From: an uncultured Bacteroidales bacterium | GTDB taxonomy: Bacteria > Bacteroidota > Bacteroidia > Bacteroidales > F082 | DNA length: 64,000 nt | Assembly: GCA_947303395.1 (NCBI GenBank) | Contig: CAMYYD010000001.1 | Location: 1-64,000, forward strand | Direction: 5' to 3' | In this document: one piece after another, positions 1,394 to 17,727 of the stretch | Position numbering within the stretch: position 1 is the first letter of the stretch | Layout of the letters: every line of letters begins with the position of its first letter | The notes under the pieces: model-generated | Told to the model about the DNA's origin: nothing | What the model saw: only the letters and a program-made list of their open reading frames with translations | Databases searched by the model: none | Made by a program: the position numbers and the translations under genes

Positions 1394-1425
1394 TTGCAGA
1401 TCAATGACTTTTTTGTTTAATTTTG
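1394..1425 (+). promoter_or_regulatory. Promoter of the radical SAM/DISARM-like operon
   Basis: TTG at 1394-1396 (-33 region) and TAATTTTG at 1418-1425 (-7 box, TAnnTTTG), 21 bases apart, as in Bacteroidetes housekeeping promoters. Predicted start of transcription is about 25 bases before the ATG at 1461. No other strong promoter was noticed between the five genes, so they are probably one transcript. Confidence 0.6.
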
Positions 1426-1460: not shown

Positions 1461-2891
1461 ATGGCAAAAGGAATAATCAAGATAGGGCTTGTAGATGCTG
1501 ACCTTCTTTGTAATGGAACTCGGCATCCTAACCTTGTGTTGATGAAACTTGCTGGATTTCTTTATGACAACGGAATCGATTTCCATCTAATTATTGATCA
1601 AAACGAAGATATCTCACAATATAAGTTAATCTATATTTCTCGCGTTTTCACATTTACACAAATGCCGGCATTCTATGAGAATGCTACTGCAACTCAAAGA
1701 AAAAAATTTAGAGAAGGTGGAACCGGATTCTACGCTAATGAGTTGAATGTAAATAAATATCGTTTCCAGCGTGAAAAAGATATGAATCAGCTGGCAAATG
1801 ATGAATTCCTAAACCAATACCCCAACCATAGAGGTGGTCCTCGCACTAACGGCATTGATCTTGCTCATCAGATGCCATATTATCACCTGTATGATGAATT
1901 TGTAGAGCAAAAAGTTAGAGAAGGCTTTAAACGAGATAAATACAAAGATTACCAACAATATAGTATTGGATTTCTTACGCGCGGTTGTATCCGTCACTGT
2001 CCATTCTGTATAAATAAATTGGAGGATACAATTCTTCCATATTCAGAACTGGAATGGTTCCTTGATGAGGAACGTGACGAACATGGCCGTTTAGTTCGTC
2101 CTTATATTTATTTATGGGATGATAATTTTCTTGCATCTGATCCTTCGGTATGGCGTGCACGGTTACAACAGCTGATCAACACTGGTCGACCTTTTCAATT
2201 TCGTCAGGGGTTGGATGAGCGTATGCTAGCTGAAAGCCCTTATGGTGAAGAGATGGCTGAAATGCTTTCGCACACAAAATACCATGGTGACTTTATATTT
2301 GCCTTTGATAACTGGAAAGATCGGCCATTGATAGAACGAGCTCTAAAAATTTGGAAGCATTATAATCCAAATAAAGGCACAAAATTTTATCTTTTCTGTG
2401 GTTTTATGCAGAAACCAGATAATTTTGAAAAGTTTTATAAAGATATTTGGGAAATCTTCCATCGTATAAAAGTGTTAATGACTTATGGTTGTGTGGGATA
2501 TATTATGCGCCATGAAGACTACAAAAAGGCTCCTGTTTCAAATCTTTATATCCAGATAGCACGGTGGTGTAACCAGCAAGCTTTTTACAAAAAGATGTCA
2601 TTTTGGGAATATACCTATCGAAATCAGACTTATTGGGAACAGTCTGCTGGTTTTAATGTTGCGAAGGAAATAAAAACATTCGAAGAATTCCAAAAAGACT
2701 ATGAAAGCGGTTATTATGAAAAGCTGGATTCTCTAGGCAAGCAACGTAAGATATGTAAAACGTTGCAAACATTACTAGATACGTTAGAAATGTTTCCAGA
2801 GCACAGAACGGAACTTCTTGAGATGTTTAGTTTTAAAATGTCAGAATTAATAGATCCAAGTCTTTGGAAAACTCTTAAAAATACTGAATAA
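1461..2891 (+). CDS. Radical SAM protein, first gene of the DISARM-like operon
   Basis: This 476-residue protein carries a CX3CX2C iron-sulfur cluster motif (C176, C180, C183, in RGCIRHCPFC), the signature of radical SAM enzymes. The N-terminal 130 residues look like the alpha/beta module seen in B12-binding-type radical SAM proteins (LVDADLL, HPNLVLMKLAG, LIYISRVF), but no DxHxxG cobalamin motif is visible. The segments LWDDNFLA and FQFRQGLDERML after the cluster resemble an uncharacterised radical SAM family I associate with phages and mobile elements. The reaction and substrate are unknown: modification of nucleic acid or a peptide is possible. The stop lies one base before the next ATG, so translation is probably coupled to the NERD-helicase gene. 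The gene is AT-rich like the rest of the operon. The radical SAM call is firm; a defence role comes from context alone. Confidence 0.85.
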   Translation: MAKGIIKIGLVDADLLCNGTRHPNLVLMKLAGFLYDNGIDFHLIIDQNEDISQYKLIYISRVFTFTQMPAFYENATATQRKKFREGGTGFYANELNVNKYRFQREKDMNQLANDEFLNQYPNHRGGPRTNGIDLAHQMPYYHLYDEFVEQKVREGFKRDKYKDYQQYSIGFLTRGCIRHCPFCINKLEDTILPYSELEWFLDEERDEHGRLVRPYIYLWDDNFLASDPSVWRARLQQLINTGRPFQFRQGLDERMLAESPYGEEMAEMLSHTKYHGDFIFAFDNWKDRPLIERALKIWKHYNPNKGTKFYLFCGFMQKPDNFEKFYKDIWEIFHRIKVLMTYGCVGYIMRHEDYKKAPVSNLYIQIARWCNQQAFYKKMSFWEYTYRNQTYWEQSAGFNVAKEIKTFEEFQKDYESGYYEKLDSLGKQRKICKTLQTLLDTLEMFPEHRTELLEMFSFKMSELIDPSLWKTLKNTE

Positions 2892-2892
2892 T

Positions 2893-4644
2893 ATGCCAAT
2901 CGTATCGCATGTCAGTTATAACAATAGCAGTGATTTGGAATCCATCATTACCCAAAATGATGGTAGCCCACTCTATGGTGAAATTGAAATGTTTCGACGT
3001 ATATATTATGATTGCCAGAATAGTGATTATACTTGGCATTTTTGGCATAATTTGAGATTACCAGTTTCTGTAAAAAACCAAAATGAAATACAGATAGACT
3101 TCTTGTTAGTATCCGAAAAAGGTGTGGTTGTTGTAGAAGTTAAAGGTGGAAAAATTGGAATAGAACAGGGACTTTTTTATTATGAAGTGTCTCGTGAGCG
3201 GACTTATATGGAACGATCTCCGTTTGACCAAGCACGAGATTATATGTATGCTTTGATTACTAATCGTATCATTAGCTCCTCACAATTATTCATAGATACA
3301 ATATGTGCGTTTCCTCATACAAGAATGGAACACACTAATACAAATTACAGAGCTGATTTGGGGTATAAATTATGGTCTAAAATTCAACATGATGATAAAA
3401 ATACCTCTTTTGCTGATTTCTGTATAGATGTGTTGGAAACAGACAAAAATAAAAATGGATGGAGCAGACCGGATCTGGAGCCTCAAGATGTAGAAATAGC
3501 AATTCAGTCTTTGTTATTTAATTTTGCTGATAGAAGTAGAAATGTCTATTCTGAAAGAGGCATGGAGGCGATATTGCAACGATTGAATATCGACAATTTA
3601 AGTACATTTAACAGTCTTCAAAAAAATGAACGCCTTTTTATTGAAGGTGGACCAGGTACTGGAAAAACAACAATTGCGCGTGCCTATATTGAAAAATACC
3701 ATACTTTAAGGGGATTATATTTGTGCTGGAACAAACTTTTGGAAGCTAAAATAAAGAATGATTTGTGGCAAGCAGGCTTGCCTAATTGCACCGTAGAACA
3801 ATTTGCAGCATTTGTTTTCTCGCTTCAGGCACAATCATCTTCCAAAAAGCTATCTCTGGAAGACATCGAAAGTGGCGCAGCCAACGACAGCTTAGAGCAA
3901 TTGTTTTCTTTAATTCGTGAAAATTCAGATTTTGTTCCTTATGATTATATTATCATAGATGAGGCACAAGATATTCTTGATAAAGGAGCCATACCACTTT
4001 TAAATGCTCTAACTTCAGTTACGAGAGATGGAGTTACAATAGGACGATATCTTGTGTTTTTTGATACCGAACAAGGATTTGATAACAAAACACGACAAAT
4101 TGACGAAATAGCAGATGCATTAGCTCTTAATGGTGCAAGATTTGTACTAGATACGAACAAAAGAGTTCCAAATAATAAAGAGATTGTTTCTTTTGCTAAA
4201 TCATTACTTGATGGAATATCCGCAGGGGAGTTATTTCAAAACATCATAAATGAGAATTATGCATCAACCCAAGTTTTCTTTTTTGAAGGCGCTAAACAAT
4301 TAATTAAGCATATAAATCAAATAAAAAAAGATATAAGAGATGGTGCTAAAAACTGGAATGAATATGTTATCCTTGCTGATTCAAGCACCAAAAAAGAGCA
4401 GACATCTGGTAATGAAAAATTATATGACAGAATCGCGACAATAGAGGGAATCAAAGAACTTTCTCCTAAAAACATAGGATATGACACATCTGAGATTCCT
4501 TTTACATCTATATTGGCATATAAAGGCTTGGAATGTAAACATGTAATATTGGTAATTAACGGACGGATAGGAATAAGCACATTCGAATTATATGTCGGTA
4601 TGACAAGAGCTATAATGGATCTTCAATTGTTAGTATTGCAGTAG
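2893..4644 (+). CDS. NERD nuclease domain fused to an SF1 (UvrD/REP-like) helicase
   Basis: This 583-residue protein has two parts. Residues 25-120 match the NERD (PD-(D/E)XK) nuclease fold, with candidate active-site residues E30, D69 (QIDFLLV), E82 and K84 (VEVKGG) and Q113 (FDQARD). From about 245 onwards is a superfamily 1 helicase/ATPase: Walker A GGPGTGKTT at 252-260, Walker B IIIDEAQD at 353-360, and motif-VI-like YVGMTRA at 567-573. It ends soon after motif VI, which makes it compact. Such proteins are expected to translocate on DNA and cut or process it. It lies one base after the radical SAM gene and six bases before the 779-aa gene. In known DISARM loci the nuclease is DrmC (phospholipase D fold); no DrmC is seen here, so this protein may take that role. 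That replacement is inferred. Confidence 0.85.
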   Translation: MPIVSHVSYNNSSDLESIITQNDGSPLYGEIEMFRRIYYDCQNSDYTWHFWHNLRLPVSVKNQNEIQIDFLLVSEKGVVVVEVKGGKIGIEQGLFYYEVSRERTYMERSPFDQARDYMYALITNRIISSSQLFIDTICAFPHTRMEHTNTNYRADLGYKLWSKIQHDDKNTSFADFCIDVLETDKNKNGWSRPDLEPQDVEIAIQSLLFNFADRSRNVYSERGMEAILQRLNIDNLSTFNSLQKNERLFIEGGPGTGKTTIARAYIEKYHTLRGLYLCWNKLLEAKIKNDLWQAGLPNCTVEQFAAFVFSLQAQSSSKKLSLEDIESGAANDSLEQLFSLIRENSDFVPYDYIIIDEAQDILDKGAIPLLNALTSVTRDGVTIGRYLVFFDTEQGFDNKTRQIDEIADALALNGARFVLDTNKRVPNNKEIVSFAKSLLDGISAGELFQNIINENYASTQVFFFEGAKQLIKHINQIKKDIRDGAKNWNEYVILADSSTKKEQTSGNEKLYDRIATIEGIKELSPKNIGYDTSEIPFTSILAYKGLECKHVILVINGRIGISTFELYVGMTRAIMDLQLLVLQ

Positions 4645-4650
4645 TAAGCT

Positions 4651-6990
4651 ATGGATAGTCAGGAAAAATATCAAGAGTTAATCAATAATGAAAATGAAAC
4701 GTTCTCTGCTATATGCGAGATGATGCTTCATTCTAAAGTGGAACATGGCCGTCAATTTCTGTGTGCCATGAATAATATAGTTGATTATTATACTAACAAA
4801 AATAATGAAGGGACGATTAATTTACAGATTATATATGTTCCAACATGTCCAGAATGGGCTCGTGAACTATTAGTACGCTTTCTGATACATAAAGAAGCTT
4901 TTTCTAATACTCAAAAATTTATTTCAATAGCAAGAAAAAAAACATCGGGCCATCTAGTTCTGCCGGAAGGACTATCATCAAAACATAAACAATATAAGCA
5001 AATACAAGCTGATAAGAGTTATTTTTCCAAATTCTTAAAACTATTTGGAAAGATAACTGATTCAAGTGATTCAGTTAGTAAATCGTTATTTGTTGTCCAA
5101 GATAAAGATATTATTACGAGGAAAAACGATAAGAATCCTTGGCTTGAACAACTATACACAAATGATTTAATTAGTGATGATGATGACAATGTTATTGTAA
5201 CAAGTAGTTTATCTGCTCATGATGTAGAGGACATAATTAGAAATAATCGAGATAATATTCCAACACTAGAGAATCTTTTTATTTTCCACTCACAGAATAG
5301 AGGGAAAATTACACAATCATATAATATAGATCAACTTGAAAGATTAAACCAATATGGTGTTGGCATAAAGAATTGTTTTGTTTTTTACATAACAGAACAT
5401 CCATTCAGGTTATATTATGCCAAAGAAAACATTAAATCTAATATATCTTCATATTTACTTAATCGAGAGATTAAACGATTTGATGATTTTGATGGCTTCA
5501 TTACTTTTACACCTGATGAATTGGATATAATGTTTCAACGAAAAAATAAACATCTAAAAGCAATTTTAGATTCTCCTGATCGTGAGATATTTACTACTGA
5601 AATTGATTATTATTTAGACGAATTACCACATAATTATAGGGTGAAAAATGCGCTATCTCTCGCTTTTTTAAATGACACGCAAAATGTGTTTATGAAAGAG
5701 TGTGAAATGGATGTTGGCGTAATGCAAGAAAAGATAGTCAAACCTTTTCTTGATTACTATAAGAATTTGTGGCTTAATGAATTTGCCCCTAGGATTAATT
5801 TTGAATTATCAAAATATCATGATATCGCATTTGTTTTTTCACCAGGAATAAACAATACATATAAGAGGGCTCTTCAACGATTCTTCTATAATGGAAATAA
5901 CAGAACTATAACAGCCGATTTTGATCAACTAAAATATGGAATCGATGCTGATTTAGTAGTTCTATTCACATTTCGCTATACTGATAATAAATACAAGTCA
6001 TATCCCAACTCTTTTGATCCTTTACCATTGAAAGCAGGACAGGACGGATTAACCATAATAAATAGGCTTACTCACAATAAGTATTATGAGTGGACAAAGC
6101 ATTATTACGAAAAAGATTTTAATGGTTTACTATTTTCAGCATATAGAAAGAGTTTTTTAGGTTGGAGCAATAGAAATTTTCAAAGACCTACAATTCCAGA
6201 CATTTTGGATGATATTGATGAAGCTGAATATGATGCTCGAGAGTATATGGCCGAAAAATGCACAGTGGTTTTTGAATCCGGTAACAAAACCAAAAAACTG
6301 GCAGCAGATCGTGTTTTATATGATAACGAGGGGCAGTATTATATCTCAAGTTTAAAAGAGCTTCCTTTTACAGAAGGAATAAAGCTACAATTCCTTGATG
6401 AGCTTGTAAATAAGATAAAAGATAATCTTATCAACAAAACTGATGATGATCTAAAATCGGAAAGTATTATTCGCCGGAACCCAGAGTATGATCTTACCGA
6501 AGATGAAATTAATTCTAATATAGAGTTATGGAAATTTCTTTTAAAAAGAAAAGTCGACGTATTGGGCATTGAGACGGTATATAATGCAATTTTCCCCAAA
6601 GAAAAGGAAATATCTATAAGAGGGTTTGAAAGATGGTTGGATTTTGATTATCCAATGATACTCCCACGTAGTCATAAAAGCCAAAATAATCTACTAACAT
6701 ATCTAGGCTTTGCTTTAAGATCTCCCTATCATAGGTTAATATTGACCAAAAAACTTTTAAAAAATAAAAACACCAAATTGTTAAACAGTCAGATTGAATC
6801 TCTGCTGCAATCAATATTAACAGTAACAAACATTGAGGAGGAGTCTTATGATGATATCTTTGACAAACATTCGGATATTTTAACACTTTTGGAGATTGAT
6901 ACTATAGATGAGATCAAAGTTTTGATCCAATTATTAGAAATAAATTTAAGAACAGTAAAAACTATAGCATATGATTCAGACAAAGCGTGA
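4651..6990 (+). CDS. Large operon protein of unknown function, possibly DrmE-like
   Basis: This 779-residue protein has no motif I can tie to a reaction. It has no signal peptide or membrane span, is rich in Lys, Asp, Asn and Tyr, and is mostly alpha/beta in appearance. Segments such as NVIVTSSLSAHD (about 190-202), LFIFHS and FYITEHPFRLYY (about 245-275), and DADLVVLFTFRY (about 430) have the look of a degenerate helicase/ATPase core without a Walker A motif. Position and size fit DrmE: in the Bacillus paralicheniformis DISARM locus drmE, of unknown function and similar length, directly precedes drmA and drmB. I cannot confirm homology by eye. Its 3' end overlaps the start of the DrmA-type gene by 20 bases, strong evidence of co-translation. 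Orphan alternative: a new subunit peculiar to this variant. Confidence 0.5.
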   Translation: MDSQEKYQELINNENETFSAICEMMLHSKVEHGRQFLCAMNNIVDYYTNKNNEGTINLQIIYVPTCPEWARELLVRFLIHKEAFSNTQKFISIARKKTSGHLVLPEGLSSKHKQYKQIQADKSYFSKFLKLFGKITDSSDSVSKSLFVVQDKDIITRKNDKNPWLEQLYTNDLISDDDDNVIVTSSLSAHDVEDIIRNNRDNIPTLENLFIFHSQNRGKITQSYNIDQLERLNQYGVGIKNCFVFYITEHPFRLYYAKENIKSNISSYLLNREIKRFDDFDGFITFTPDELDIMFQRKNKHLKAILDSPDREIFTTEIDYYLDELPHNYRVKNALSLAFLNDTQNVFMKECEMDVGVMQEKIVKPFLDYYKNLWLNEFAPRINFELSKYHDIAFVFSPGINNTYKRALQRFFYNGNNRTITADFDQLKYGIDADLVVLFTFRYTDNKYKSYPNSFDPLPLKAGQDGLTIINRLTHNKYYEWTKHYYEKDFNGLLFSAYRKSFLGWSNRNFQRPTIPDILDDIDEAEYDAREYMAEKCTVVFESGNKTKKLAADRVLYDNEGQYYISSLKELPFTEGIKLQFLDELVNKIKDNLINKTDDDLKSESIIRRNPEYDLTEDEINSNIELWKFLLKRKVDVLGIETVYNAIFPKEKEISIRGFERWLDFDYPMILPRSHKSQNNLLTYLGFALRSPYHRLILTKKLLKNKNTKLLNSQIESLLQSILTVTNIEEESYDDIFDKHSDILTLLEIDTIDEIKVLIQLLEINLRTVKTIAYDSDKA

Positions 6991-9900
6991 TTCTCTTGAA
7001 AGATTTTTAAGGGAACAAATGGAAGGCCCCGGGGCTTGCAATGGACATTTCTATTGTCTTGATGGTGATGTTAATGAAGAAATTATTAACACAACGCCTG
7101 GCTCATTATATAGTACTGCAATTTTATTTCCATCAAGAAAGTATGTTGAAGATGTTTCTTCAGAAGACCCGGGAGCAACATCTAATACAAACGATTCAGA
7201 TTTAGAGAGTGATGCCGATTATCAAGAGTCTCAAGATGATAATAGTAGCGATGATCTTGATGAAAGAGTTAATAGATTAGGAGCGGACGAGGAGGATCTT
7301 TATTCTCTTAGTCAACGATTTCCATCAACAATTGGTATTTCTTGTTGCCTAGATAAAAAAGGAGCGCCATTAGATCCTTCTGATTTGATCATAACTATAT
7401 CAGGCCGTTATTATAAGAAAATATCACAGAGAGATTGTTGCAATGTTGTTGTGAAAATTGATGATGAAATCGGTTTTAAATCGTTTTATAATAAATTTAA
7501 ATCCCAACTTGAGCCGTATTTTACTACTGTTGAAGGTGGTTTACACCTCACAAAAGATATTACGAAAGATATCGGGATAGTTAAAGAAACGATCCTGTCA
7601 ATCAATAAAGAATTATGTAAAACAATAGCAACAAATTCTGATAATTCTGTAGATAAGGAGTATGAACAAATTGGAGATAATTATAGATATCTCAAATCAT
7701 ACAAAGAGCGTTTATGGAGAAAACTTAAATTTTTTAAAGACAAAGAAAACTATATATCTAATGAGGAACGCCAAACTATAGATACAAGAATGCAACTGAT
7801 TGAACAGGGTGAAACATATCTGTCCTATCTTGAAGATGCAATGAATATATGTAATAATAAATCTTTTGGTTTTTGGCAATCTTATACGTTTAACAAATCT
7901 ATCAATCTTAATGGTATAGATTTAAATAAAAGTGGTAATAAAGTTATTTACTCACCACGTGAACATGAAAACGAAAACTTAAACATTCTTTTTGAGGGAA
8001 ACGAGGCAGACAATGTTAAGTTTGTCCGCAAATTGTCAGTATGGTTGCAGGTTACAAGATTTACATCTGGTGCTAAAAATAAGACATATTTAAAGGTTCA
8101 ACTAGAGAATAGTTCCACACCGTTTGAAGAAGATTCAAAACATTATTTTTCAATTGTAACAGAAAAAGTTAACGAAAGATGTTTCTTCGGAGTCCAAATC
8201 AAAGTTGCAAGTAATTTGTTAAGTCCATATCAGGAAAGAAACACTGAAAATCGTCAAGAAGATGTAGAACATCTGAATTATTTATATCGCTCTATAAAAG
8301 ATTATGCCGTTGGTCATTCGTGTTCGGTTGATTGGAAGATAACTAGCAACGAAAAGTGGGTGCGGTCTGAGTTTATTCCTTCATACGAGATTCCTGATGT
8401 TGAACCAATTCCTCGTGATAAATATTTATTTGTTAATGAAAATGGTGCTCGGGTACCAAAACCCATCGTTGATGATTCTAAAGTATTAGAGTTTAAATGG
8501 TTGTCACTTTTCTCAAATGCTACCGATGATGAGATCATACATCATTTAAAAGGCTTTGTTGATAAGTATCAAACATGGATCAACAAACAAAAAGATTTTT
8601 TACAAAAAGATACTGGAGATAATAGAATCGGATATGAAAACCTTGATAAATGTCAGACTGATTGTAATAGAATGTTGGAAAATATCAGATTGATATTAGA
8701 GGCTGACAAATCCAATATGGAGTGTTTCCGATTAATGAATACGGCTATGTTTATTCAATTGTGGCATAGTCAGAAATCAACAGACGAAGAAACAAGTTTT
8801 GATTTTTATAAAGACAAAGCTGACGATCATTTATTTGATGATAAGCCAGCGGCATGGCGTCCATTTCAGTTAGCATTCATATTGCTTAATCTTGATGGTA
8901 TTATTCAAAAGGATAATGATCCTGAATGGAAATATAGAAATGAAATTGTTGATCTTGTATGGTTCCCAACTGGTGGTGGTAAAACTGAGGCATATTTAGG
9001 GATTATAGCATTATCTATTATATATCGCCGCAGGAAATACCCAGATAATGGAGGAGGTACTACAGTAATCATGAGATATACACTTCGCCTTCTTGCTACT
9101 CAACAGTTTCAACGCGCTATGCGTTTAATATTAGCATTAGAACAATTGCGCCGATGGTGTTTATATGATTTAGGTAAAGAACCAATATCTATTGGCTTAT
9201 ATGTAGGCGATGATTCTCTTCCAAATACAGCAAAAAACCTACAAGAAGAATGTCAAAAATGGAATACATTTGATGATTTTGGTAGGCGTCGCGAATCAAA
9301 AATACCATTAGATAAATGCCCATGCTGTGGTAGAAAGTTAAAATATCAAAACAAAGGTTCTTTAACTGAGCCTAAAATTGTTTTCCGATGTGACAATATA
9401 GATTGTACTTTTTCAGATGAACTTCCAGTTAAGCTTTGTGATGAATATATTTATCAAGAGCCTCCAACATTGCTATTTGGTACTGTTGATAAATTTGCTG
9501 CACTCGGTCATAAAGTTTCCACATCAAAGGAAAAACAAGATTCAAGACGATTGTTTGGCAATGGCTGTTTAAAATTACTTCCACCATCATTAATAATTCA
9601 GGATGAGTTACATTTACTACTTGGTCCACTTGGCTCTGCTGTTAGTTTATTTGAATGTGCCATCGACCAGTTGTGTTCTTACCAAAATGATTCTGGATTA
9701 ATAATACGTCCTAAGATTATTTCCTCAACAGCAACAACTCGCAATACAGAATTGCAAATTCGCGCTCTCTATGATAGAGATGTAAGTATATTTCCAAAAC
9801 CAGGAATTGATTATGACGATTCCTTTTTTGCTTTTTATCAACGAAAAGAAGTCAATAATGAAATACAATTTGTTTCAAAAAGAAAGTATATTGGCATCTT

Positions 9901-11062
9901 CCCAACAGGAAGAACACATATGACCACTCAAATGCGTTTGGTTGCTGCAATGTTTGTTCATCGTGCTATCTTTGAGAAAGAAAATGCGAATTCTCTTGAT
10001 GATAAAAAAGTCCAAGAGGCTATGGACTATTATCATTCAATTATAGATTATTTCAACAGTTTGAAAGAAGTTGGAAAAACAGATGCTCAGTTTTACACTG
10101 AATTCACTAAATATACTCGTCGTTTATTTAAACGTGTATTACGATTTAGTAATAAGTTAGAATGCTTGTATTGTTATGACTCTTCATATAATAAATCTGA
10201 GCTAACTGGGAGACTTTCTGGAGCTGAAGTCGTTAATGAGCTAATGAAAGTGGCTAAACACTGGAAGGCAGATGAGCGATTGCCGCACAAAAATGAAGCT
10301 GGAACGGAATGGCTCCATGGGAACACTCCACCAGATTTGATACTTGCAACGAACATGATTTCTGTGGGTTTGGATGTTGATCGTTTTAACACAATCATTA
10401 TGAATTCAATGCCCCGTAATATCGCGGAATATATACAGGCAAGTAGTCGTGTCGCTCGAAAAAAGCTAGGACTGGTAATTACTTTACATAATCCTTTTAG
10501 AGCTAGGGATTTATCTCATTTTGAACGTTTTAGAGAGTTTCACGAAAAGCTTTATTACTATGTTGAGCCTATATCAATAACTCCTTTCTCAAAGAAATCA
10601 GTTAATAAATATATGCCATTGTATAATGCTGCAATGATAAGGCATCATTATAATTCTTTAGCAAATCCAGAAAATGCTTCAGCATTGTCAGTGCAGCTTC
10701 AAAATACAATAAAAAAAGACATGTATTTATATTTCAGGGAGCGTTTAGAAAGAACAAAAAAGTTATCTAGCGAATTGAAAGAACTACTTACTGAAGAACT
10801 TGAAAATTATATTGAACAATTTATAGATGAAGCATTAAGAAAATGGCAAGGAATGGTCGATGAGCAACAATCTGAAGATTACTCATTGCGCTATTCTGGC
10901 TCCGACTTTTTGAATTCAAATGGCCGTCAAAGAACAAAATGGAAGGATCTATTTTTAGCATTAGATGCATATTTAGATGATGATGCTAATAATATGTGGG
11001 CAGTTCCAATGTCTTTGCGAACCGTTGAATCTGAAGCAGTCTTAAATATAAAAGATAATTAG
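6971..11062 (+). CDS. DISARM DrmA-type SF2 helicase
   Basis: This 1363-residue protein matches DrmA, the large helicase of DISARM phage defence. Visible motifs are Walker A PTGGGKT at 666-672 followed by EAYLG; the DEAH-like box QDELH at 877-881; a motif III ISSTATT; a four-cysteine zinc-type cluster beginning CPCCG at 783-787; and C-terminal helicase motifs ATNMISVGLDVD (about 1124) and QASSRVARK (about 1155). The N-terminal 600 residues start with a FLREQMEGPG segment, as I recall for DrmA, and include a very acidic stretch around residues 75-100. In DISARM, DrmA works with DrmB on incoming DNA in the cytosol. The gene overlaps the 779-aa gene and is one base from drmB. Apparently full length and intact. 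Confidence 0.85.
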   Translation: MIQTKRDSLERFLREQMEGPGACNGHFYCLDGDVNEEIINTTPGSLYSTAILFPSRKYVEDVSSEDPGATSNTNDSDLESDADYQESQDDNSSDDLDERVNRLGADEEDLYSLSQRFPSTIGISCCLDKKGAPLDPSDLIITISGRYYKKISQRDCCNVVVKIDDEIGFKSFYNKFKSQLEPYFTTVEGGLHLTKDITKDIGIVKETILSINKELCKTIATNSDNSVDKEYEQIGDNYRYLKSYKERLWRKLKFFKDKENYISNEERQTIDTRMQLIEQGETYLSYLEDAMNICNNKSFGFWQSYTFNKSINLNGIDLNKSGNKVIYSPREHENENLNILFEGNEADNVKFVRKLSVWLQVTRFTSGAKNKTYLKVQLENSSTPFEEDSKHYFSIVTEKVNERCFFGVQIKVASNLLSPYQERNTENRQEDVEHLNYLYRSIKDYAVGHSCSVDWKITSNEKWVRSEFIPSYEIPDVEPIPRDKYLFVNENGARVPKPIVDDSKVLEFKWLSLFSNATDDEIIHHLKGFVDKYQTWINKQKDFLQKDTGDNRIGYENLDKCQTDCNRMLENIRLILEADKSNMECFRLMNTAMFIQLWHSQKSTDEETSFDFYKDKADDHLFDDKPAAWRPFQLAFILLNLDGIIQKDNDPEWKYRNEIVDLVWFPTGGGKTEAYLGIIALSIIYRRRKYPDNGGGTTVIMRYTLRLLATQQFQRAMRLILALEQLRRWCLYDLGKEPISIGLYVGDDSLPNTAKNLQEECQKWNTFDDFGRRRESKIPLDKCPCCGRKLKYQNKGSLTEPKIVFRCDNIDCTFSDELPVKLCDEYIYQEPPTLLFGTVDKFAALGHKVSTSKEKQDSRRLFGNGCLKLLPPSLIIQDELHLLLGPLGSAVSLFECAIDQLCSYQNDSGLIIRPKIISSTATTRNTELQIRALYDRDVSIFPKPGIDYDDSFFAFYQRKEVNNEIQFVSKRKYIGIFPTGRTHMTTQMRLVAAMFVHRAIFEKENANSLDDKKVQEAMDYYHSIIDYFNSLKEVGKTDAQFYTEFTKYTRRLFKRVLRFSNKLECLYCYDSSYNKSELTGRLSGAEVVNELMKVAKHWKADERLPHKNEAGTEWLHGNTPPDLILATNMISVGLDVDRFNTIIMNSMPRNIAEYIQASSRVARKKLGLVITLHNPFRARDLSHFERFREFHEKLYYYVEPISITPFSKKSVNKYMPLYNAAMIRHHYNSLANPENASALSVQLQNTIKKDMYLYFRERLERTKKLSSELKELLTEELENYIEQFIDEALRKWQGMVDEQQSEDYSLRYSGSDFLNSNGRQRTKWKDLFLALDAYLDDDANNMWAVPMSLRTVESEAVLNIKDN

Positions 11063-11063
11063 T

Positions 11064-13172
11064 ATGGAAATACATAAAGATATACAATATAATCAGGGAA
11101 TTGGGAAATATAAGGTTTTATCTTCCAATGCAGGAGTTGGTTCTATAATTACTACAAAAGCAGGATTCTTCATCATGCCTAAGTCAGTCTCGTTCTGGGG
11201 TTTTGTTAGAGATGTGAATAAGCATATAGAGAACTTTAGTGACAGTGATCCGGAATCTATTTCGAAGTCCGCTGGTGTAGATGTTATCAATGATCCACGT
11301 TTTGTGGAATTCTTAAAAGACACTCAAGGAATTCCCAAATTAAAATATCTAATCGATGTTCCACACTTGTCTTTAGATAATTGGAATTATCCAAGAGAAA
11401 AAAAACATCCATTATATCTTCGTTGCAAAGAAAACACGGGTCATGAATTAAAACCAGATCATTTTTTCATTCCTGCCATACATTTTCCTAGATGGTTCTA
11501 TAGTAGGAAGGAAAAATATTTCAAACCTCTTGAAGAATGGGAGAGTTTATGGAAACAAAAGACAAGTGACTCAAGATTACAATATTTTGCTCCGCCAAGA
11601 GATCCTTACACAAATACACATAGAACATTCAAAGACAATAATCAAACTAGAGATATCTATGATACTCTGGTACAAATCCCAATATTGTTGATATGCAAGA
11701 ATGGACATATATCTGACATTCCATGGTATCAATTGTTTTGCGCTGGTCTTGATAATAAAAGAGACGATATGAACAAGCCAGAAGGATTTGAACTATTCGA
11801 TTATCCATGTAAAGATTGTGATAAAGGTGGCCGACACGAATTACAATGGATTGAAAACCGTAATAATTCAGAAAGTTGGGGTACTTTAAAATGCAAGAAA
11901 TGTGGCAAGACTTATGGTCTTGAAGGTATTATGAATATACATCCATTCTGCAAAGGAGATACACCATGGAATGGATTTGGTACAAAGTCTGATGACTCTT
12001 GTAAAGATGTGAATGGTGCAAGGGGCGTTATGCAAATGGCGCTGGTAACCAGTAATAGTGTTTATTATGCCGATTCATTCAGTAGTCTGTATATTCCTCC
12101 AAAATATTTGCCTGATATTGCTTTGCCACCACTGCTTCAAAAGGTTTTGGATTTACTTAATAATAGATGGTATCCTAAGGCACTGGAGCGCAATAAAGAT
12201 CTTACAAAAGCATCGTATCTTGATAGTATTGATATTAGGGATAAGGCTGAGGATAGTGATATAGAATTAACAGATGAACAAGCCAATGTGATAAAAGATC
12301 GTTTTTTGGCAGTTAAAGATATTCCTAAAGATACTCACGAACAATATAGATATGAAGAATATCGCGTGTTTTCAAAATATTCAGAGTCTATTCCTGAAAC
12401 ATCAAATTTAGAATTCAAAGATATAGATTTACCTTCTGATCTTCAACCATATTTTAATAAGATTCAACAGGTTGACACTTTGGCTATTACACTAACTCAA
12501 CTGGGATTTAACAGAGTTTCTATGCCATCACCATTAAGAATTGATGGCGTAGTTGTTCGACCTGAGGGTCAGAGGATTTATAATGAACCTGTAGAAAAGG
12601 TATATTCTCTGCCAGCGAATCAAAGCTTAGGAGAAGGTTTATTCTTTGAATTTAATAATGATGCAGTAGAAAGTTGGTTGGTTAATCATTATGAACTTTT
12701 TAATAATCGATATAATCAACCAGAAGGAGAGATTGGAAAAGCATTAAAAGGTGAAATGGAACAATACGGTGCTCCAAAATTCTATTTACTTCACACTTTC
12801 TCACATGTCATCATGAAGGAATTAGAGTTTTCTTGTGGATATCCAACAGCGAGCCTTCAAGAGAGATTGTATTATTCAGATAGAATGTGTGGCGTTTTGA
12901 TTTATACTGCAGATGGCGCTGAAGGTAGTATGGGTGGTCTTGTATGGCAGGGACAACCTCGGCTTATAGAAAAAATAATAAAAAACGCTATAAATAATGC
13001 TCAAGAATGTTCTTCCGATCCATTATGCTGGGAAAATGAAGACCAATTAAATTTGGCAGCTTGTTTTTCTTGCTGTTTAGTCTCGGAAACTTCTTGTGAA
13101 AAGAGGAATTTGGGATTAGATCGCAGAGCATTGGTGGATCCTGAATTTGGATTCTTTAAAGATCTATCATAG
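11064..13172 (+). CDS. DISARM DrmB-type protein with DUF1998 domain
   Basis: This 702-residue protein shows the features of DrmB. An N-terminal GVGSI segment is followed by a cysteine-containing region with CKDC and CKKCG pairs (about 250-285) that probably binds zinc. The C-terminal DUF1998 domain (about 570-695) contains HTFSHVIMKELEFSCGY, YSDRMCGVLIYTADGAEGS, GGLV and the cysteine block AACFSCCLVSETSCE, close to the ACHAC...PETSCE signature of the family. DrmB forms a complex with the DrmA helicase in DISARM and contacts DNA. It begins one base after drmA and ends the operon; no drmC or methyltransferase gene follows. The downstream 290 bases hold the Fic promoter, so the operon seems to stop here. 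Confidence 0.85.
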   Translation: MEIHKDIQYNQGIGKYKVLSSNAGVGSIITTKAGFFIMPKSVSFWGFVRDVNKHIENFSDSDPESISKSAGVDVINDPRFVEFLKDTQGIPKLKYLIDVPHLSLDNWNYPREKKHPLYLRCKENTGHELKPDHFFIPAIHFPRWFYSRKEKYFKPLEEWESLWKQKTSDSRLQYFAPPRDPYTNTHRTFKDNNQTRDIYDTLVQIPILLICKNGHISDIPWYQLFCAGLDNKRDDMNKPEGFELFDYPCKDCDKGGRHELQWIENRNNSESWGTLKCKKCGKTYGLEGIMNIHPFCKGDTPWNGFGTKSDDSCKDVNGARGVMQMALVTSNSVYYADSFSSLYIPPKYLPDIALPPLLQKVLDLLNNRWYPKALERNKDLTKASYLDSIDIRDKAEDSDIELTDEQANVIKDRFLAVKDIPKDTHEQYRYEEYRVFSKYSESIPETSNLEFKDIDLPSDLQPYFNKIQQVDTLAITLTQLGFNRVSMPSPLRIDGVVVRPEGQRIYNEPVEKVYSLPANQSLGEGLFFEFNNDAVESWLVNHYELFNNRYNQPEGEIGKALKGEMEQYGAPKFYLLHTFSHVIMKELEFSCGYPTASLQERLYYSDRMCGVLIYTADGAEGSMGGLVWQGQPRLIEKIIKNAINNAQECSSDPLCWENEDQLNLAACFSCCLVSETSCEKRNLGLDRRALVDPEFGFFKDLS

Positions 13173-13460: not shown

Positions 13461-14537
13461 ATGGCGAAAGAAAGGCTGAATGATTTATTGGAACAGTGGA
13501 AGGCGCTACAACCTCTCACAGAGACACAACAGAACAATTTGAGTAGGCGGTTTACGGTTGAGTATAATTACAACAGTAATCATATTGAAGGCAATACGCT
13601 TACATACGGTCAGACTGAGCTTTTGCTTATGTTTGGTGCTGTTAGCGGTGAGGGACATCTGCAAGATTTTACAGAGATGAAGGCCAGTCAGGTGGGATTG
13701 GAAATGATGAGCCAGGAGGTAAGAGAAGGGAATATGCCTCTGACGCAACACTTTATCAGAACGCTTCATAAAACTTTATTAAGAGATGACTATACTGTAT
13801 ATCGCAATCTGCCAGGCGGACAACAGACAAGCTATGTAATACATGCAGGTCAATACAAAACACGACCAAACAGTGTGATTACACGCTATGGAGACCGTTT
13901 TGATTATGCTTCGCCTGAAGAGACGCCTGCACTAATGACAGATCTTGTCAACTGGTATAACGATGCTGAGAAGTCGGGCAAGTATTCAGTAGTGGAGCTT
14001 GCGGCATTGTTTCATTATCGATATATCCGTATCCACCCATTTGAGGATGGTAATGGCAGAATAGCCCGTTTGATGGTGAACTACATATTGGCTCGTCATG
14101 GATGGCCAATGATTGTTGTGAGAAGCAGAAAAAAGCAGGATTATTTGGAAGCATTGCATAAAACAGATATGGTTGTTGGCCCGGTGCCTTCGGAAGGAGC
14201 TCGCGCCAGTTTGACAAAGGCAAGGAATTTTGTGAAGTATTTTACGAAACTGGTGGAAGACGAGTTGGCTTACAACATAGCTTTTATTGAAAACAAAGAC
14301 GAAAATGTGTGGTGGTATGATGGCGAGAAAATAGCTTTTCGGTCACCTAATGCTTCGAGATTGCTTGGTATTCTTAAAGACAATCCATATATCACATTGG
14401 TGAAACTGTCGGAAGAGATTGGCATAAACATGTCGGCCATACAAAAGCTTATTGAAAGCATGGTTGAAAAAGGTTATATCCAGCGCCGTGATACTGACAA
14501 ATCGTGGCTTGTTTTGGCATCTTCAGTTATAAAATAA
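13461..14537 (+). CDS. Fic family protein (AMP-transferase type)
   Basis: This 358-residue protein contains the catalytic Fic motif HPFEDGNGR at 192-200, including the essential histidine and the Gly-Asn-Gly-Arg anion-binding loop. An N-terminal inhibitory helix motif, S39-xxx-E43-G44 (SNHIEGN), lies before it. This fits the class II Fic arrangement, where the inhibitory glutamate in the same chain blocks ATP. The C-terminus (about 300-350, KDNPYITLVKLSEEIGINMSAIQKLIESMVEKGYI) looks like a winged helix-turn-helix. Fic enzymes transfer AMP, and sometimes other groups, to hydroxyl side chains of target proteins. It has its own promoter and a bidirectional terminator. It may be cargo of the same island as the DISARM-like operon, or an unrelated regulator. 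Confidence 0.9.
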   Translation: MAKERLNDLLEQWKALQPLTETQQNNLSRRFTVEYNYNSNHIEGNTLTYGQTELLLMFGAVSGEGHLQDFTEMKASQVGLEMMSQEVREGNMPLTQHFIRTLHKTLLRDDYTVYRNLPGGQQTSYVIHAGQYKTRPNSVITRYGDRFDYASPEETPALMTDLVNWYNDAEKSGKYSVVELAALFHYRYIRIHPFEDGNGRIARLMVNYILARHGWPMIVVRSRKKQDYLEALHKTDMVVGPVPSEGARASLTKARNFVKYFTKLVEDELAYNIAFIENKDENVWWYDGEKIAFRSPNASRLLGILKDNPYITLVKLSEEIGINMSAIQKLIESMVEKGYIQRRDTDKSWLVLASSVIK

Positions 14538-14554: not shown

Positions 14555-14587
14555 AAGAAAAAAGCCTCGGTTGAGGCTTTTTTTTAT
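14555..14587. terminator. Bidirectional terminator between fic and the DUF3987 gene
   Basis: Eight-base stem AAAGCCTC/GAGGCTTT with GGTT loop at 14561-14580, preceded by an A run and followed by a T run, so it can stop transcripts from both converging genes. Confidence 0.8.
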
Positions 14588-16476
14588 TTTTGAGGTTTGA
14601 TATAGCTGCCGTAGGCGGGATGCTGGAGCTGGCCGGAGGCGCAGAGGCGGTGGATGTAGGACTCGGCGGTGCGAGGTGTGATGCGGAGCTGCTGGGCGAC
14701 GGAGAGATAGGTTTGGCGATCGAACTCGGCTGGGAGGCTGTTGAGGAAACTGGACATATTGACATTGGGACGATGGGAGGCGGTATCGGGCTCGGAGGTT
14801 GGGAGATTGCTGAAGACGTGGGCGGTGTGCTGAAGGAGCACACGAGCCATGATGAGAGAAGTGCGGAAGTCGGTGTCGGAACAAAGGGCGACTGGAGTGA
14901 TGGCGACGCCATCCATGAAGCGGAGCGTGGTGAGAATCATGGCCAGACGGAAGGTGATGAGACCAAGACGACGGACGGAGGCTACGATATCCAAACCGAA
15001 GAGAGAGGAATACTGGAGCTGGACATCGCCAAAGAACTGGTTGAACTCGAGCTGCTGAGGGGCGGTGAGCGAGAAACGGATGGGCTGGGACTGCTGAAGC
15101 GTTTGATAGAACGCGAAGAAACGGTGGCCGAGATGCTCGAAATACTGGTCGATGGTGTTGTCGGAGGCGGCGAAGACGTTGAGCCATTCGAGGATAAGAC
15201 TTTTATTGTAGAAGATGAAGCGGCTGAAGAGGCCGTTTTCGGCATCGGGGATGAGCGAGAGAACCTGACGTGGAGTGCCGGAGAGCAGAGCCGAGAGGCG
15301 AGGACGGGCAAGCTCGACAAACTCACGGTCTTTGCGGCGGGTATATGATATCATTTCATGATGGAAAGCCTTGCGGAAGCCATCGGAGAAGTTGCCATAG
15401 TCGGACTTGAAGGTGTTGGCAAGGGTGTCGCCCTCGGTTTCGAGGATGATGCCGATGCCTTGGTTGTCGTTGAGCATTTGATAGACAGCGGTGGCGGAGC
15501 TGTTGGCAGGGATGAGAAGGGTGCGGATTGGTGGTTCGGCAGGCTGCTCGTGGGTTTTCTTATCCTGATTGTATTCGTTGAGCTGGCGATGGTATTCTTC
15601 CATTTCCAACTTGTTGAGCTGCTTGAGGTTGTCGTGGATGGGCTTGATGAGATAGCGGCAGGAGGTGAGGCGGCCTTTGCCGGCGGAGGCTGGGGCAGAG
15701 ACGAAGGTGAAGAGGTTGGGGAAGACCTCACGCTCAGCATAGATGCCTGAGACGTTGGGAAGGCAGGCGGAGATGGCGGTGAGGGAGCCGAGGATGAGGA
15801 GGTCGGCGTCTTCATAGTTGGAGGCTTTGGAGATGATGTCGGATAGGAAGCCGTGGAGGAGGCTGTAGATTTCGTTGGAAAATGTGGGGAGGGGCTCGGA
15901 GCACTCGGAGGACTGGGAGCACTCGGTTTCGGAATTACTAAATTCACAAGATTCCGAAGATTCCGAAACTTGGGAATTTGAAATAGGACGAATAGGGCTA
16001 ATAGGACGAATAGGGTTAATAGGGGCTTTAGAGGCAGTAGGGGCTTTAGGGAGAGAGATGCCACTTTGTTTTGCCAAGTGAAATAAGGTGTTGATAGTGA
16101 TGCCACTGCCTTTTGAACGCAGACAAGCAGTAAACTGCTTATCTGCTTCGCGTTCATCATAACCACAATAGAAGCGAGACAGGCGATGAAAGTAGGAGCG
16201 GCCACCTTCACCGAGGGCGTCCGCTAGGGCGAAGGCCATGTCACGCCATTCGCTGTAGCTTGGAGCTATATCAGCTGAAGCGGATTCAACGGAGCAGACA
16301 AGCTGCTCGATTTCATTTTCAAGATCGGAGAACTCGGAGAACTGGGAGCTCTCGGGGGAGGGTGAGACAGGAGGCTCTGGCGAGCCTCCTTTTTCGGTGT
16401 TTGGGATAACGGGATTAGGGGATAACGAACTTTTTTTCTTTCCCAACCATTCTGAAGGATTAAAATCTTTCTTCAT
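14584..16476 (-). CDS. DUF3987 protein with PriCT-2-like domain, integrative-element helicase/primase type
   Basis: This 630-residue protein has a PriCT-2-like domain at about 65-140 (SYSEWRDMAFALADALGEGG, YCGYDEREADKQF) and a DUF3987 domain from about 200 (GSLTAISACLPNVSGIYAE, SAPASAGKGRL, LLSGTPRQVL, LFSRFIFYN). In Bacteroidales integrative elements this type pairs with a BT4734 protein and probably supports element replication. It overlaps the BT4734 gene by ATGA. Two linkers, at about residues 15-50 and 148-195, are runs of Ser/Glu/Pro/Ile encoded by the same words as the intergenic low-complexity repeats at 246-340 and 1206-1350. The reading frame survives these tracts, so they are tolerated insertions or expansions. 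The C-terminus (560-625) looks like a helix-turn-helix. Confidence 0.75.
   Translation of the reverse strand: MKKDFNPSEWLGKKKSSLSPNPVIPNTEKGGSPEPPVSPSPESSQFSEFSDLENEIEQLVCSVESASADIAPSYSEWRDMAFALADALGEGGRSYFHRLSRFYCGYDEREADKQFTACLRSKGSGITINTLFHLAKQSGISLPKAPTASKAPINPIRPISPIRPISNSQVSESSESCEFSNSETECSQSSECSEPLPTFSNEIYSLLHGFLSDIISKASNYEDADLLILGSLTAISACLPNVSGIYAEREVFPNLFTFVSAPASAGKGRLTSCRYLIKPIHDNLKQLNKLEMEEYHRQLNEYNQDKKTHEQPAEPPIRTLLIPANSSATAVYQMLNDNQGIGIILETEGDTLANTFKSDYGNFSDGFRKAFHHEMISYTRRKDREFVELARPRLSALLSGTPRQVLSLIPDAENGLFSRFIFYNKSLILEWLNVFAASDNTIDQYFEHLGHRFFAFYQTLQQSQPIRFSLTAPQQLEFNQFFGDVQLQYSSLFGLDIVASVRRLGLITFRLAMILTTLRFMDGVAITPVALCSDTDFRTSLIMARVLLQHTAHVFSNLPTSEPDTASHRPNVNMSSFLNSLPAEFDRQTYLSVAQQLRITPRTAESYIHRLCASGQLQHPAYGSYIKPQK
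15890..16035. repeat. Word-family repeat inside a coding region
   Basis: On the plus strand: CGGAGCACTCGGAGGACTGG, then GGAATTACTAAATTC, AAGATTCCGAAGATTCCGAA, and two copies of AATAGGACGAATAGGG. The words match the intergenic copies at 246-340 and 1206-1350. Here they encode the Ser/Glu- and Pro/Ile-rich linker of the DUF3987 protein. A shorter copy (CGGAGAACTCGGAGAACTGG) lies at about 16325-16350. Confidence 0.75.
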
Positions 16477-17042
16477 AATTCGAGGATTTTAGGGTTGATG
16501 AAACAATCGGGATCGTGGGGGAGGAAGCAGGCGCGGGAGATGTCTTTGCCGGAGGGATCGACTTCGAGACCATAATCTAATTTAAGATAGTTTTGAATGG
16601 CGAGGAAATAATCCAAGTGAGAGGCTTTCGAGAGGTCGATAGCGACTATCCATTTGAGACCATCGCCGGAAGGTGAGGTGAAGAGAAGCTGCGTTTCGAA
16701 GTATTGGTCGAGCATGAGGGCGGCACGGACTTCGAGAAGATTTTCGAGGTGGTCGAAATCGAGACACATGAGGCCTGAATGAGAGATGAGCGCTTTGTCG
16801 GAGCGGGTTTCGAAGAGGCCTGAGAAGGTGCAATAGTCGAAGTTGGCGGCTTTAAAGAGACGAGCCATCTTGGGGTCGTTTTGCTTGATGATGCGGAGCT
16901 TTTGGGTGGCTTCGCGGGCATCGGGACCGGTGATATAGCGATAAGCATCAGCCAGAGTGAATCTGGCTGACGGATGTGTGTTTTTGACAGGCTTCGGGAA
17001 GAAAGAGAAGCGAGTGAGGGTGTTATTTGATGATGATTTCAT
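16473..17042 (-). CDS. BT4734/VirE N-terminal-type primase-like protein
   Basis: This 189-residue protein resembles the BT4734 (VirE_N) family, regarded as related to archaeo-eukaryotic primases. Conserved blocks are SGLMCLDFDHL with acidic residues, LLFTSPSGDGLKWIVAID and the C-terminal DISRACFLPHDPDCF. I chose the start at 17042 (MKSSSNN) because the longer frame upstream merely runs through the two HTH genes. This start overlaps the end of the upstream HTH gene by 20 bases, and the stop overlaps the DUF3987 start as ATGA. Together with the DUF3987 protein it probably forms the replication module of the integrative element. Family call fairly sure; activity inferred. Confidence 0.75.
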   Translation of the reverse strand: MKSSSNNTLTRFSFFPKPVKNTHPSARFTLADAYRYITGPDAREATQKLRIIKQNDPKMARLFKAANFDYCTFSGLFETRSDKALISHSGLMCLDFDHLENLLEVRAALMLDQYFETQLLFTSPSGDGLKWIVAIDLSKASHLDYFLAIQNYLKLDYGLEVDPSGKDISRACFLPHDPDCFINPKILEL

Positions 17043-17268
17043 GGCTGAAGTCGATTGCTGATGGAACATAATTGTCGGCAAGGTATTGCTGGATATCCTG
17101 ACGGCGGTAATAGATCTTATTGTTGATCCTCGAATAAGGCAGAGTGTTGTTGGCACGGAGCGTTTGGAGGGTGCGGCTGCTGATGTGGAGGAGATGGATG
17201 ACGGCATAGTTGTCGATCCAGTCTTCGATTTTAGTTTCGGCCACTTGTTTTTTGAGTTCAGCGTCCAT
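17023..17268 (-). CDS. Small helix-turn-helix DNA-binding protein (second of a pair)
   Basis: This 81-residue protein has an excisionase/MerR-like helix-turn-helix (AVIHLLHISSRTLQTLRANNTLPYSRI, then NKIYYRRQDIQQYL). The start at 17268 is set by a strong Shine-Dalgarno, GAAAGGAGG, located inside the end of the preceding HTH gene; the longer frame upstream is only read-through of that gene. Proteins of this kind in Bacteroidales elements control excision or transcription of element genes. It overlaps its neighbours on both sides, so it belongs to one operon with the BT4734 and DUF3987 genes. Confidence 0.8.
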   Translation of the reverse strand: MDAELKKQVAETKIEDWIDNYAVIHLLHISSRTLQTLRANNTLPYSRINNKIYYRRQDIQQYLADNYVPSAIDFSHEIIIK

Positions 17269-17563
17269 TGCGACCTCCTTTCTGCATGCAGTAGGCGTTG
17301 GCGCGCATGCTGATTTCCTCGTCGGTGGCGATGCGGTTGCTCTGGAGCCAGTCTTCGAGTTCCTTGCGGTTGAAGTAGCACATTTTTCCGGCAGGTTTGA
17401 AATGCGGAATCTGACGGCGCATGGTGAGCTTATAGAGATAGGATTTAGAGAAACCACAGTAAGCTGCTGCCTCGTCGCTGGTGAGGACTTCTTTGAAACA
17501 ATTGATGATACTAGCTTTGACTTGTTCGGCAAGTTGATTAAGATCTTCTGACATAACATACAT
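17258..17563 (-). CDS. Helix-turn-helix domain protein (first of a pair)
   Basis: This protein of up to 101 residues has a classic HTH_17 domain: EVLTSDEAAAYCGFSKSYLY, KLTMRRQIPHFKP, YFNRKELEDWL. The start may be the first ATG (17563) or the internal one at 17554 (MSEDLNQ); the latter looks more typical. It is probably an excisionase-like or regulatory DNA-binding protein of the integrative element. It is transcribed from TATTTTTG (minus strand, 17676-17683), giving a leader of about 110 bases that contains a GGGGTC...GACCCC hairpin. Confidence 0.8.
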   Translation of the reverse strand: MYVMSEDLNQLAEQVKASIINCFKEVLTSDEAAAYCGFSKSYLYKLTMRRQIPHFKPAGKMCYFNRKELEDWLQSNRIATDEEISMRANAYCMQKGGRNGR

Positions 17564-17675
17564 TTTTTTGATAGAAGATTTGGGCTGTCCGGGGATGCGG
17601 GGTCAACTTCCGACCCCCATGTTTGCCCATGTGACGATCATAGCGTTGACCTTTACTATGATTGGAATCACATTG

Positions 17676-17683
17676 CAAAAATA
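17676..17683 (-). promoter_or_regulatory. -7 promoter box for the HTH/BT4734/DUF3987 operon
   Basis: Minus strand TATTTTTG. A second TATTTTTG lies at 17699-17706, overlapping the terminator hairpin of the gene upstream. Confidence 0.5.
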
Positions 17684-17697
17684 GAGGGTAACGGAAA

Positions 17698-17727
17698 GCA
17701 AAAATAGTGTGCCTGACAAGCACACTA
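17698..17727 (-). terminator. Terminator of the 269-aa gene
   Basis: Perfect eight-base stem TAGTGTGC/GCACACTA with seven-base loop, followed on the minus strand by TTTTTGC. Confidence 0.7.

Follow-up and report, generated by a model that had tools for sequence, protein, structure and literature searches.

How a defence operon of the DISARM kind may tell host DNA from phage DNA, when its methyltransferase appears to have given way to an enzyme of another family, is the question raised by a locus of an uncultured Bacteroidales bacterium (lineage F082; GenBank assembly GCA_947303395.1). The window, i.e., the whole stretch of DNA that was analysed, comprises positions 1 to 64,000 of contig CAMYYD010000001.1, and at 1461-13172 it holds a compact five-gene operon, all on the + strand, encoding a radical SAM protein (rSAM), a NERD-SF1 (superfamily 1) helicase, a protein of 779 amino acids (aa), DrmA and DrmB. 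A preliminary description of this DNA had proposed a phage-defence variant in which self marking, if any, is "done differently," and comparison of the first slot among related operons lends support to this core idea. The features concerned are the following.

1461..2891, + strand: radical SAM protein (rSAM), first gene, 476 aa; the slot is that of a C5 cytosine methyltransferase in sister lineages
1986..2009, + strand: codons of the [4Fe-4S]/SAM motif CIRHCPFC, residues 176-183, read in the translation
2893..4644, + strand: fusion of a NERD (PD-(D/E)xK-type) nuclease domain and an SF1 helicase, 583 aa; Pfam NERD, SLFN-g3 helicase and motifs
4651..6990, + strand: DrmE-like protein, 779 aa; predicted pseudo-helicase core and DrmE-like C-terminal domain
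6971..11062, + strand: DrmA, YprA-family superfamily 2 (SF2) helicase of full-length type, 1363 aa; NCBIfam, PADLOC and PDB 7s9v matches
11064..13172, + strand: DrmB, DUF1998/MZB zinc-binding partner, 702 aa; NF038324 over cut-off
1418..1425, + strand: candidate operon promoter element TAATTTTG, which fits TAnnTTTG, 43 bases 5' of the rSAM start

The open reading frames, the intergenic spacings (1, 6, -20, and 1 bases, in order), the GC content (31-36% per operon gene, compared with 43.6% across the window and 57% in the upstream gene) and the profile matches agree with the earlier picture of a tight, AT-rich operon ending in drmA and drmB. The operon is not a chance arrangement, because at least two of 99 genus genomes, namely the window's and G050, have the full order, and so have loci of other families. 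In this genus set, in all 99 members of which rSAM alone was sought, a long rSAM, whole or in part, is present in four genomes (the window's, G050, G020, and G047). Only a remnant is found in G047 (L021), where residues 1-264 of rSAM and 139 residues from the DrmB end are left, and a decayed copy in G754 (L166) has kept rSAM, the NERD gene and a small part of the DrmE-like gene.

The assignment to DISARM rests on the last two genes. DrmA matches NCBIfam NF038325 with E 4e-225 and 750 bits, which is under the 950-bit cut-off of that family, the PADLOC DrmA model with E 1.5e-180, and the solved Serratia DrmA (PDB 7s9v) with E 3.7e-109. DrmB scores 285.6 bits with NCBIfam NF038324 (cut-off 240), matches PADLOC with E 2.4e-55 and exceeds the cut-off of Pfam MZB. 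With a DrmA helicase and a separate DUF1998/MZB protein, DrmB, the operon is by homology a DISARM core. Among known systems it most invites comparison with DISARM class 2 (drmMII, drmE, drmA, drmB, drmC), which it resembles in the strong DrmA and DrmB matches, in the DrmE-like protein encoded directly before drmA, and in the C5 methyltransferase (the DrmMII type of activity) that comes first in its sister lineages. It differs in having rSAM for the methyltransferase, in lacking DrmC, in an added NERD-SF1 helicase, and in a DrmE-like protein too diverged for the PADLOC DrmE models. The PADLOC definition of DISARM type II includes DrmMII, a cytosine methyltransferase (PMC9252829, in part). As first described, the operon has no methyltransferase or phospholipase D (PLD) signature: no such family is found by Pfam among its five proteins, nor any N6, C5, or HKD motif by regular expression, the operon being the range in which DrmC was sought. 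Nor is there an SNF2 or N6-methyltransferase family among the five, such as DISARM class 1 (DrmD, DrmMI) would have. Because two defining genes, DrmMII and DrmC, were looked for in the operon and are missing from it, it is, judged by its proteins, a DISARM variant and not DISARM class 2.

What stands in the first slot elsewhere can be seen in related operons. A DrmA match was obtained in 20 of 395 Bacteroidota genomes, the window's included, and the neighborhoods of 11 of the other 19 were examined. In G201 and G520, a protein of 568 or 598 aa, respectively, is followed by the NERD helicase, a protein of about 830 aa, DrmA, and DrmB. The 568-aa first protein of G201 is a cytosine-C5 methyltransferase (Pfam PF00145, E 2e-35). 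The best PADLOC models for the two first proteins are type II methyltransferases (E 2.5e-43 and 9.5e-47), the DrmMII models scoring lower (E 1.5e-22 and 3.2e-25), roughly on a par with Druantia DruM, and the motifs GSPPC and MENV are present in 12 of 12 slot methyltransferases (about 570 aa).

A scan of a genome contig collection with a five-row DrmA alignment gave at least 596 stretches and 572 relatives, of which the best 80 were kept and annotated against a reference set, in detail for L062-L097 and by tags for L098-L141, methyltransferases being detected by C5 reference proteins only. Seven of these 80 loci begin with rSAM and are labeled as Prevotellaceae (L063), Bacteroidaceae (L064), Prevotella (L065), Dysgonomonas (L066), Bacteroides (L069), uncultured Bacteroidales (L071, a contig of G050), and Porphyromonadaceae (L097, which ends at a contig edge inside DrmA). 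The assembly of L066, Dysgonomonas sp. 520, bears no MAG label and may therefore come from an isolate. No C5 methyltransferase lies within 10 kb in any of the seven, rSAM and a methyltransferase were not found together in any of the best 80 DrmA loci, and Pfam detects no methyltransferase of any type in nine flanking open reading frames of five rSAM loci or in an extra frame of L065. The first gene is similarly close to the NERD gene in both forms, separated by 1-14 bases in seven rSAM loci and by -4 to 3 bases in seven methyltransferase loci; the exception is L065, where the gap is 624 bases and contains another frame.

A DrmA tree of 57 rows (55 of the 80 loci, G520, and the window), built by a quick method and supported by the Shimodaira-Hasegawa-like approximate likelihood ratio test (SH-aLRT) only, unites the rSAM rows and L062, whose contig begins at DrmA, in one clade (SH-aLRT 100). 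This clade is nested in a 17-row group (SH-aLRT 99) with seven methyltransferase rows, and further in a 25-row clade of full-length DrmA (SH-aLRT 100), in which eight rows have rSAM, 12 the C5 methyltransferase, and five neither. The same order is kept in 10 of the 12 methyltransferase rows, L068 being without NERD and L078 having the methyltransferase on the opposite strand. Four of the five rows with neither enzyme are cut short by a contig edge (L062, L075, L077, L079), and the fifth, L091, is also without NERD. This tree does not single out one sister group for the rSAM clade. Very probably, then, an ancestral cytosine-C5 methyltransferase was replaced by rSAM in its slot, and a single replacement would be the simplest history. 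The notion of a DISARM without methyltransferase thus stands for the operon itself, with the refinement that rSAM holds the slot of the sister lineages' C5 methyltransferase; likewise, the expectation that rSAM and NERD genes are conserved next to drmAB in relatives is borne out. As a separate observation, ten loci among the 80 (L083-L085, L087-L090, L092-L094) form a DrmAB group in which a protein of about 490 aa (803 aa in L093) stands before DrmA. A gene of about 300 aa, with no Pfam family in the four proteins tested, mostly precedes, and the C5 methyltransferase was not found.

An enzyme lost from the slot could still act from elsewhere, and the mark could still be 5-methylcytosine, laid in trans by an unlinked C5 methyltransferase while rSAM has another role in the complex. 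The preliminary description had itself named a methyltransferase and drmC, acting with these genes from elsewhere in the genome, as evidence that would overturn it. Ten genomes were searched whole, i.e., eight with the operon, G020, and G047, several of these assemblies being incomplete. The dedicated methyltransferase of 568 aa was not found at full length in any of them, but was found in the positive control. In six of the ten the match is partial, at 30-41% identity and spanning no more than about 200 of the 568 residues; the unlinked enzymes match parts only, and the window's genome (assembly 92% complete) gave no match to the dedicated type. Generic PF00145 methyltransferases do exist elsewhere in seven of the eight rSAM-type genomes, the one without a match being G552 (1.4 Mb, likely incomplete). 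Methylation in trans would also accord with DrmA itself, in which V1352 of the window protein is the equivalent of the base-contacting V1296, as placed by aligning the G050 DrmA to 7s9v and the window's by a common motif. Among the rSAM-clade rows that have this DrmA end, the residue is V in six and I or L in two. An altered methyl-sensing residue in the rSAM clade, considered as a candidate, was therefore rejected, and with an aliphatic residue across the clade the sensing surface looks kept. All told, methylation in trans is considered improbable.

The first slot also has a history of its own. In a comparison of seven complete rSAM operons, those of L071 and L069 proved 83% identical in the NERD helicase, 60% in the DrmE-like protein, 77% in DrmA and 79% in DrmB, with only 64% in rSAM, while the rSAM of L071 is 84% identical to the window's and 87% to that of L063, pairs whose DrmA proteins share 54 and 60%, respectively. 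Grouping of L064, L069, and L071 in the rSAM tree is rejected by the approximately unbiased (AU) test (p 0.0005), and a similar but weaker tree conflict is seen in the methyltransferase-bearing lineages (AU p 0.03). By these comparisons, the first slot behaves as an exchangeable module in both lineages, moving independently of the other four genes, as would be expected of an enzyme acting by itself and not of a bound subunit. The disagreement between the rSAM and DrmA trees, together with a close rSAM homologue outside DISARM in G020, is what could also be predicted of a hitch-hiker lying upstream by chance. However, rSAM is found in all eight rSAM-clade rows whose 5' side is present, at the short spacing given above in the seven measured, L065 apart, and these loci span several families while the outer flanks examined differ, which makes such an accident very hard to believe in.

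Assignment of the first protein to the radical SAM enzymes is based on its CIRHCPFC at residues 176-183, a CxxxCxxC that all 10 long homologues checked share, and on weak fold matches for a partial TIM barrel, with radical SAM enzymes at the top of the list; by these sequence features it is a radical SAM protein. It matches phrog_9298, "radical SAM domain protein," with E 8.7e-35, and no Pfam, NCBIfam, or PADLOC family up to E 0.1. No viperin-type match was obtained in PADLOC at that threshold, the presence of a viperin model there being unconfirmed, and a sequence search of solved structures gave nothing useful for either rSAM or the 779-aa protein. In evenly drawn genome sets the protein is rare, being found in 1 of 395 genomes of the phylum (E 1e-8) and 3 of 393 of the order (E 1e-12), the window counted in both; the match in one of the latter three, G108, is weak and partial. 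Since MiaB, MtaB, and RimO are among its better fold matches, rSAM might act like a methylthiotransferase or a repair enzyme and modify a protein, tRNA, or DNA lesion, e.g., by maturing a component of the system, instead of marking DNA. A dedicated protein substrate in the operon is at odds with the independent exchange of rSAM relative to the other four proteins, and this assignment of its target also has to accommodate the pairing of rSAM with an unrelated cassette in G020; it is thus regarded as a poor candidate.

In G020 (L020:12177-17538), an rSAM 83% identical to the window's is followed by a ParB-domain protein, an AHJR-like restriction endonuclease (Pfam match sub-cut-off), an SNF2 helicase, and a second ParB-domain protein. 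No methyltransferase family was detected by Pfam in six neighbors tested of this rSAM. The ParB part of the second ParB protein matches phrog_498, a family named DNA methyltransferase, with E 6e-7 over profile positions 32-104 of 633; ParB domains are often fused to DNA methyltransferases (PMC12783734, in part). The rSAM sequences of G020 and G047 fall inside the DISARM rSAM tree, so the same enzyme has served or serves a different cassette. An exchange of cassettes at one site in these two genomes was considered and rejected, no DNA or translated match being present outside rSAM, and a Schlafen/AlbA-type gene lies downstream in both. A second swap between methyltransferase and rSAM, sought in the ParB-endonuclease-SNF2-ParB cassette, was not found with a ParB query in 384 genomes of the order (a search with no known positive) nor in viral contigs. 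The G020 cassette is possibly an undescribed restriction system.

Homologues of rSAM can also be found in viruses. In a phage collection, 12 records match, and six were inspected. The unverified 7-kb human faecal contig MT837356 (L142) carries rSAM, the NERD helicase, and the DrmE-like gene, and the operon may therefore travel on a mobile element. In an Oscillospiraceae phage (L143), a distant rSAM homologue is flanked by an N6/N4 methyltransferase, for which a ParB match falls below cut-off, and by a C5 methyltransferase, the genes overlapping. In a Methanomassiliicoccales virus, the homologue has an SNF2 helicase on one side and a ParB gene on the other; in two Bacteroides phages, methyltransferases are annotated only a few genes away from it, and Marinitoga camini virus 1 has none annotated nearby. 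A first viral scan with rSAM gave no match; a second, with other patterns, gave ten IMG/VR loci with a homologue at 32-40% identity, whose tested neighbors include XPB-type helicases and a DNA polymerase, most neighbors matching nothing compared. Taken together, and with no null model behind the comparison, the phage neighbors point to functions connected with DNA, and among these somewhat more to modification. In two loci (L168:4732-6630 and L173:10004-12253), rSAM is fused to long C-terminal parts that have no Pfam match, next to helicase or uncharacterized genes. Among plasmids, the L066 rSAM as query gave only distant matches in two records, and the 779-aa protein none.

Bacteroidales with rSAM in the methyltransferase slot may use another chemistry to mark DNA as their own. 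The preferred reading, to which a probability of roughly 50% can be given, is that the window holds an anti-phage operon of the DISARM kind, of a Bacteroidota branch related to class 2, in which rSAM marks self DNA. That rSAM is itself the self-marking enzyme is about as apt to hold as to fail, its chemistry being presumed and the fold matches weak. It is a more tentative proposal that the operon resembles a restriction-modification system in which rSAM, by radical chemistry, puts a hitherto unknown mark on DNA (e.g., a base with a carbon-bound methyl or methylthio substituent) and DrmAB takes this mark for self; the same enzyme would also act for a second, unrelated restriction cassette of a sister species and have kin among phage enzymes for the modification of phage DNA. 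Mechanistically, rSAM would take over the methyltransferase's job by modifying a base of host DNA, perhaps through radical methylation or methylthiolation, and the mark would keep DrmAB from activation on self DNA; DrmA-DrmB would load on phage DNA that bears no mark and has single-stranded or 5'-overhang ends, sensing or scaffolding would fall to the DrmE-like pseudo-helicase, and unwinding and cutting of the DNA to the NERD-SF1 helicase. DrmAB is described as autoinhibited, loading on 5'-overhang single-stranded DNA and having its ATPase lowered by 5-methylcytosine DNA (PMC9142583, in part). According to a review, methylation of phage by DrmMII does not stop DISARM from restricting it (PMC10286901, in part), an argument against a simple mark. 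Recognition of 5'-overhang DNA and restriction of phage lacking methylation sites have also been reported for DISARM (PMC9142583, in part), which would suit a system where DrmAB discriminates by DNA ends alone, so that the methyltransferase would be dispensable, and rSAM is an effector or signal maker whose product, a modified nucleotide or another small molecule, blocks phage. Such a viperin-like logic has a precedent in the radical SAM viperins, known antiviral enzymes, although these belong to another subfamily with nucleotide products (PMC12926258, in part); as an account of rSAM it is judged unlikely, if still worth weighing. How DISARM separates self from phage is debated, published work pointing on the one hand to DrmA as a sensor of methylation and on the other to recognition of DNA ends. 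In the present operon, evolution would have swapped the methyltransferase for another enzyme and kept DrmAB, so that the function of rSAM would show whether a mark is needed; it could also reveal a new DNA modification in Bacteroidales, and it offers a testable function for the phage-borne radical SAM family phrog_9298.

The NERD helicase of the second gene combines a Pfam NERD domain (E 2.7e-13) with an SF1-type helicase (SLFN-g3 helicase), and its D...ExK, Walker A, and Walker B motifs are present, the first being seen in 12 of 12 homologues inspected. Its place next to drmAB is conserved in relatives but is not peculiar to this variant, the methyltransferase-bearing relatives carrying it as well. 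It is missing from the relatives Filimonas L068 and L091 and may therefore be accessory; that it is the effector nuclease is an open wager, to be held no more firmly than its denial. The NERD-helicase reference, possibly in its helicase part only, is matched in 27 of the 44 more distant DrmAB loci (L098-L141), where the protein may be an unrecognized regular component of DISARM.

For the 779-aa protein, no match was found in Pfam, PADLOC (its DrmE models included), or PDB sequences; a PHROG of unknown function (E 8e-4) and one sub-cut-off NCBIfam family (E 0.048) are matched. By profile-profile comparison, 176 C-terminal columns match an alignment that includes true DrmE (probability 85.5), so that the protein probably shares the DrmE C-terminal domain, and structure modeling predicts a two-RecA-domain core of SF2/SNF2 type that has no Walker A/B, i.e., a pseudo-helicase. 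The protein, which the preliminary description placed in the drmE position, is thus probably not unrelated to DrmE. DrmE-like proteins modeled as SF2 ATPases without Walker motifs may hint at the role of DrmE.

Beyond class 2, the closest relative is the Bacteroidota operon C5 methyltransferase-NERD helicase-DrmE-like-DrmA-DrmB (Psychroflexus L073, Chryseobacterium L070), which agrees with the window's in order, spacing, and four of five homologous proteins, and differs in its first gene, a cytosine methyltransferase of about 570 aa instead of rSAM. We know of no name for this operon. ARMADA and TALON likewise have a YprA-family helicase at the core, and TALON a NERD nuclease; however, their DUF1998 is fused to the helicase, whereas DrmA and DrmB of the window are separate genes, and none of the partners in ARMADA (BrxHII, PglX) or TALON (TPR-CSD, TBP) is among the five window proteins (PMC12458937, in part). 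In the parts consulted of that YprA survey, radical SAM is not mentioned, and NERD is named for TALON and in a reference only. BREX type 4, tabulated with phosphorothioation where other types methylate, is a precedent for exchanged modification chemistry in one defense scaffold (PMC10273834, in part). Its proteins are unrelated to those of the window operon. To our knowledge, its modifying enzyme is not a radical SAM enzyme. The rSAM form of DISARM appears to be undescribed in the open-access literature searched, a scope outside which the original DISARM paper lies.

Regarding the surroundings, TAnnTTTG is the consensus of the Bacteroidetes -7 element, and TAATTTTG at 1418..1425 is a possible operon promoter; 11 further 8-mers of this type match within the operon itself. 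A Fic gene with a winged helix (13461-14537, +) begins 288 bases downstream of the operon. As a member of the system it was rejected, having its own TAnnTTTG matches at 13360 and 13385 and no Fic counterpart at the G050 locus; a Fic protein downstream of the operon in L069 is taken as coincidence. An ADP-ribosylglycohydrolase gene lies to the left of the operon (348-1133, -). To the right of the operon and the Fic gene, 14584-19803 (-) holds DUF3987/PriCT-2, BT4734-like, and tyrosine integrase genes of an integrative element, whose cargo may include the operon; in G050, likewise, a tyrosine integrase is encoded nearby (L019:1048-2382). Words of 12-15 bases, e.g., AAGATTCCGAAGATT and ATAGGACGAATAGG, are common to 1213-1336 (the rSAM leader) and 15895-16014 (in the DUF3987 gene), some copies being direct and others inverted.

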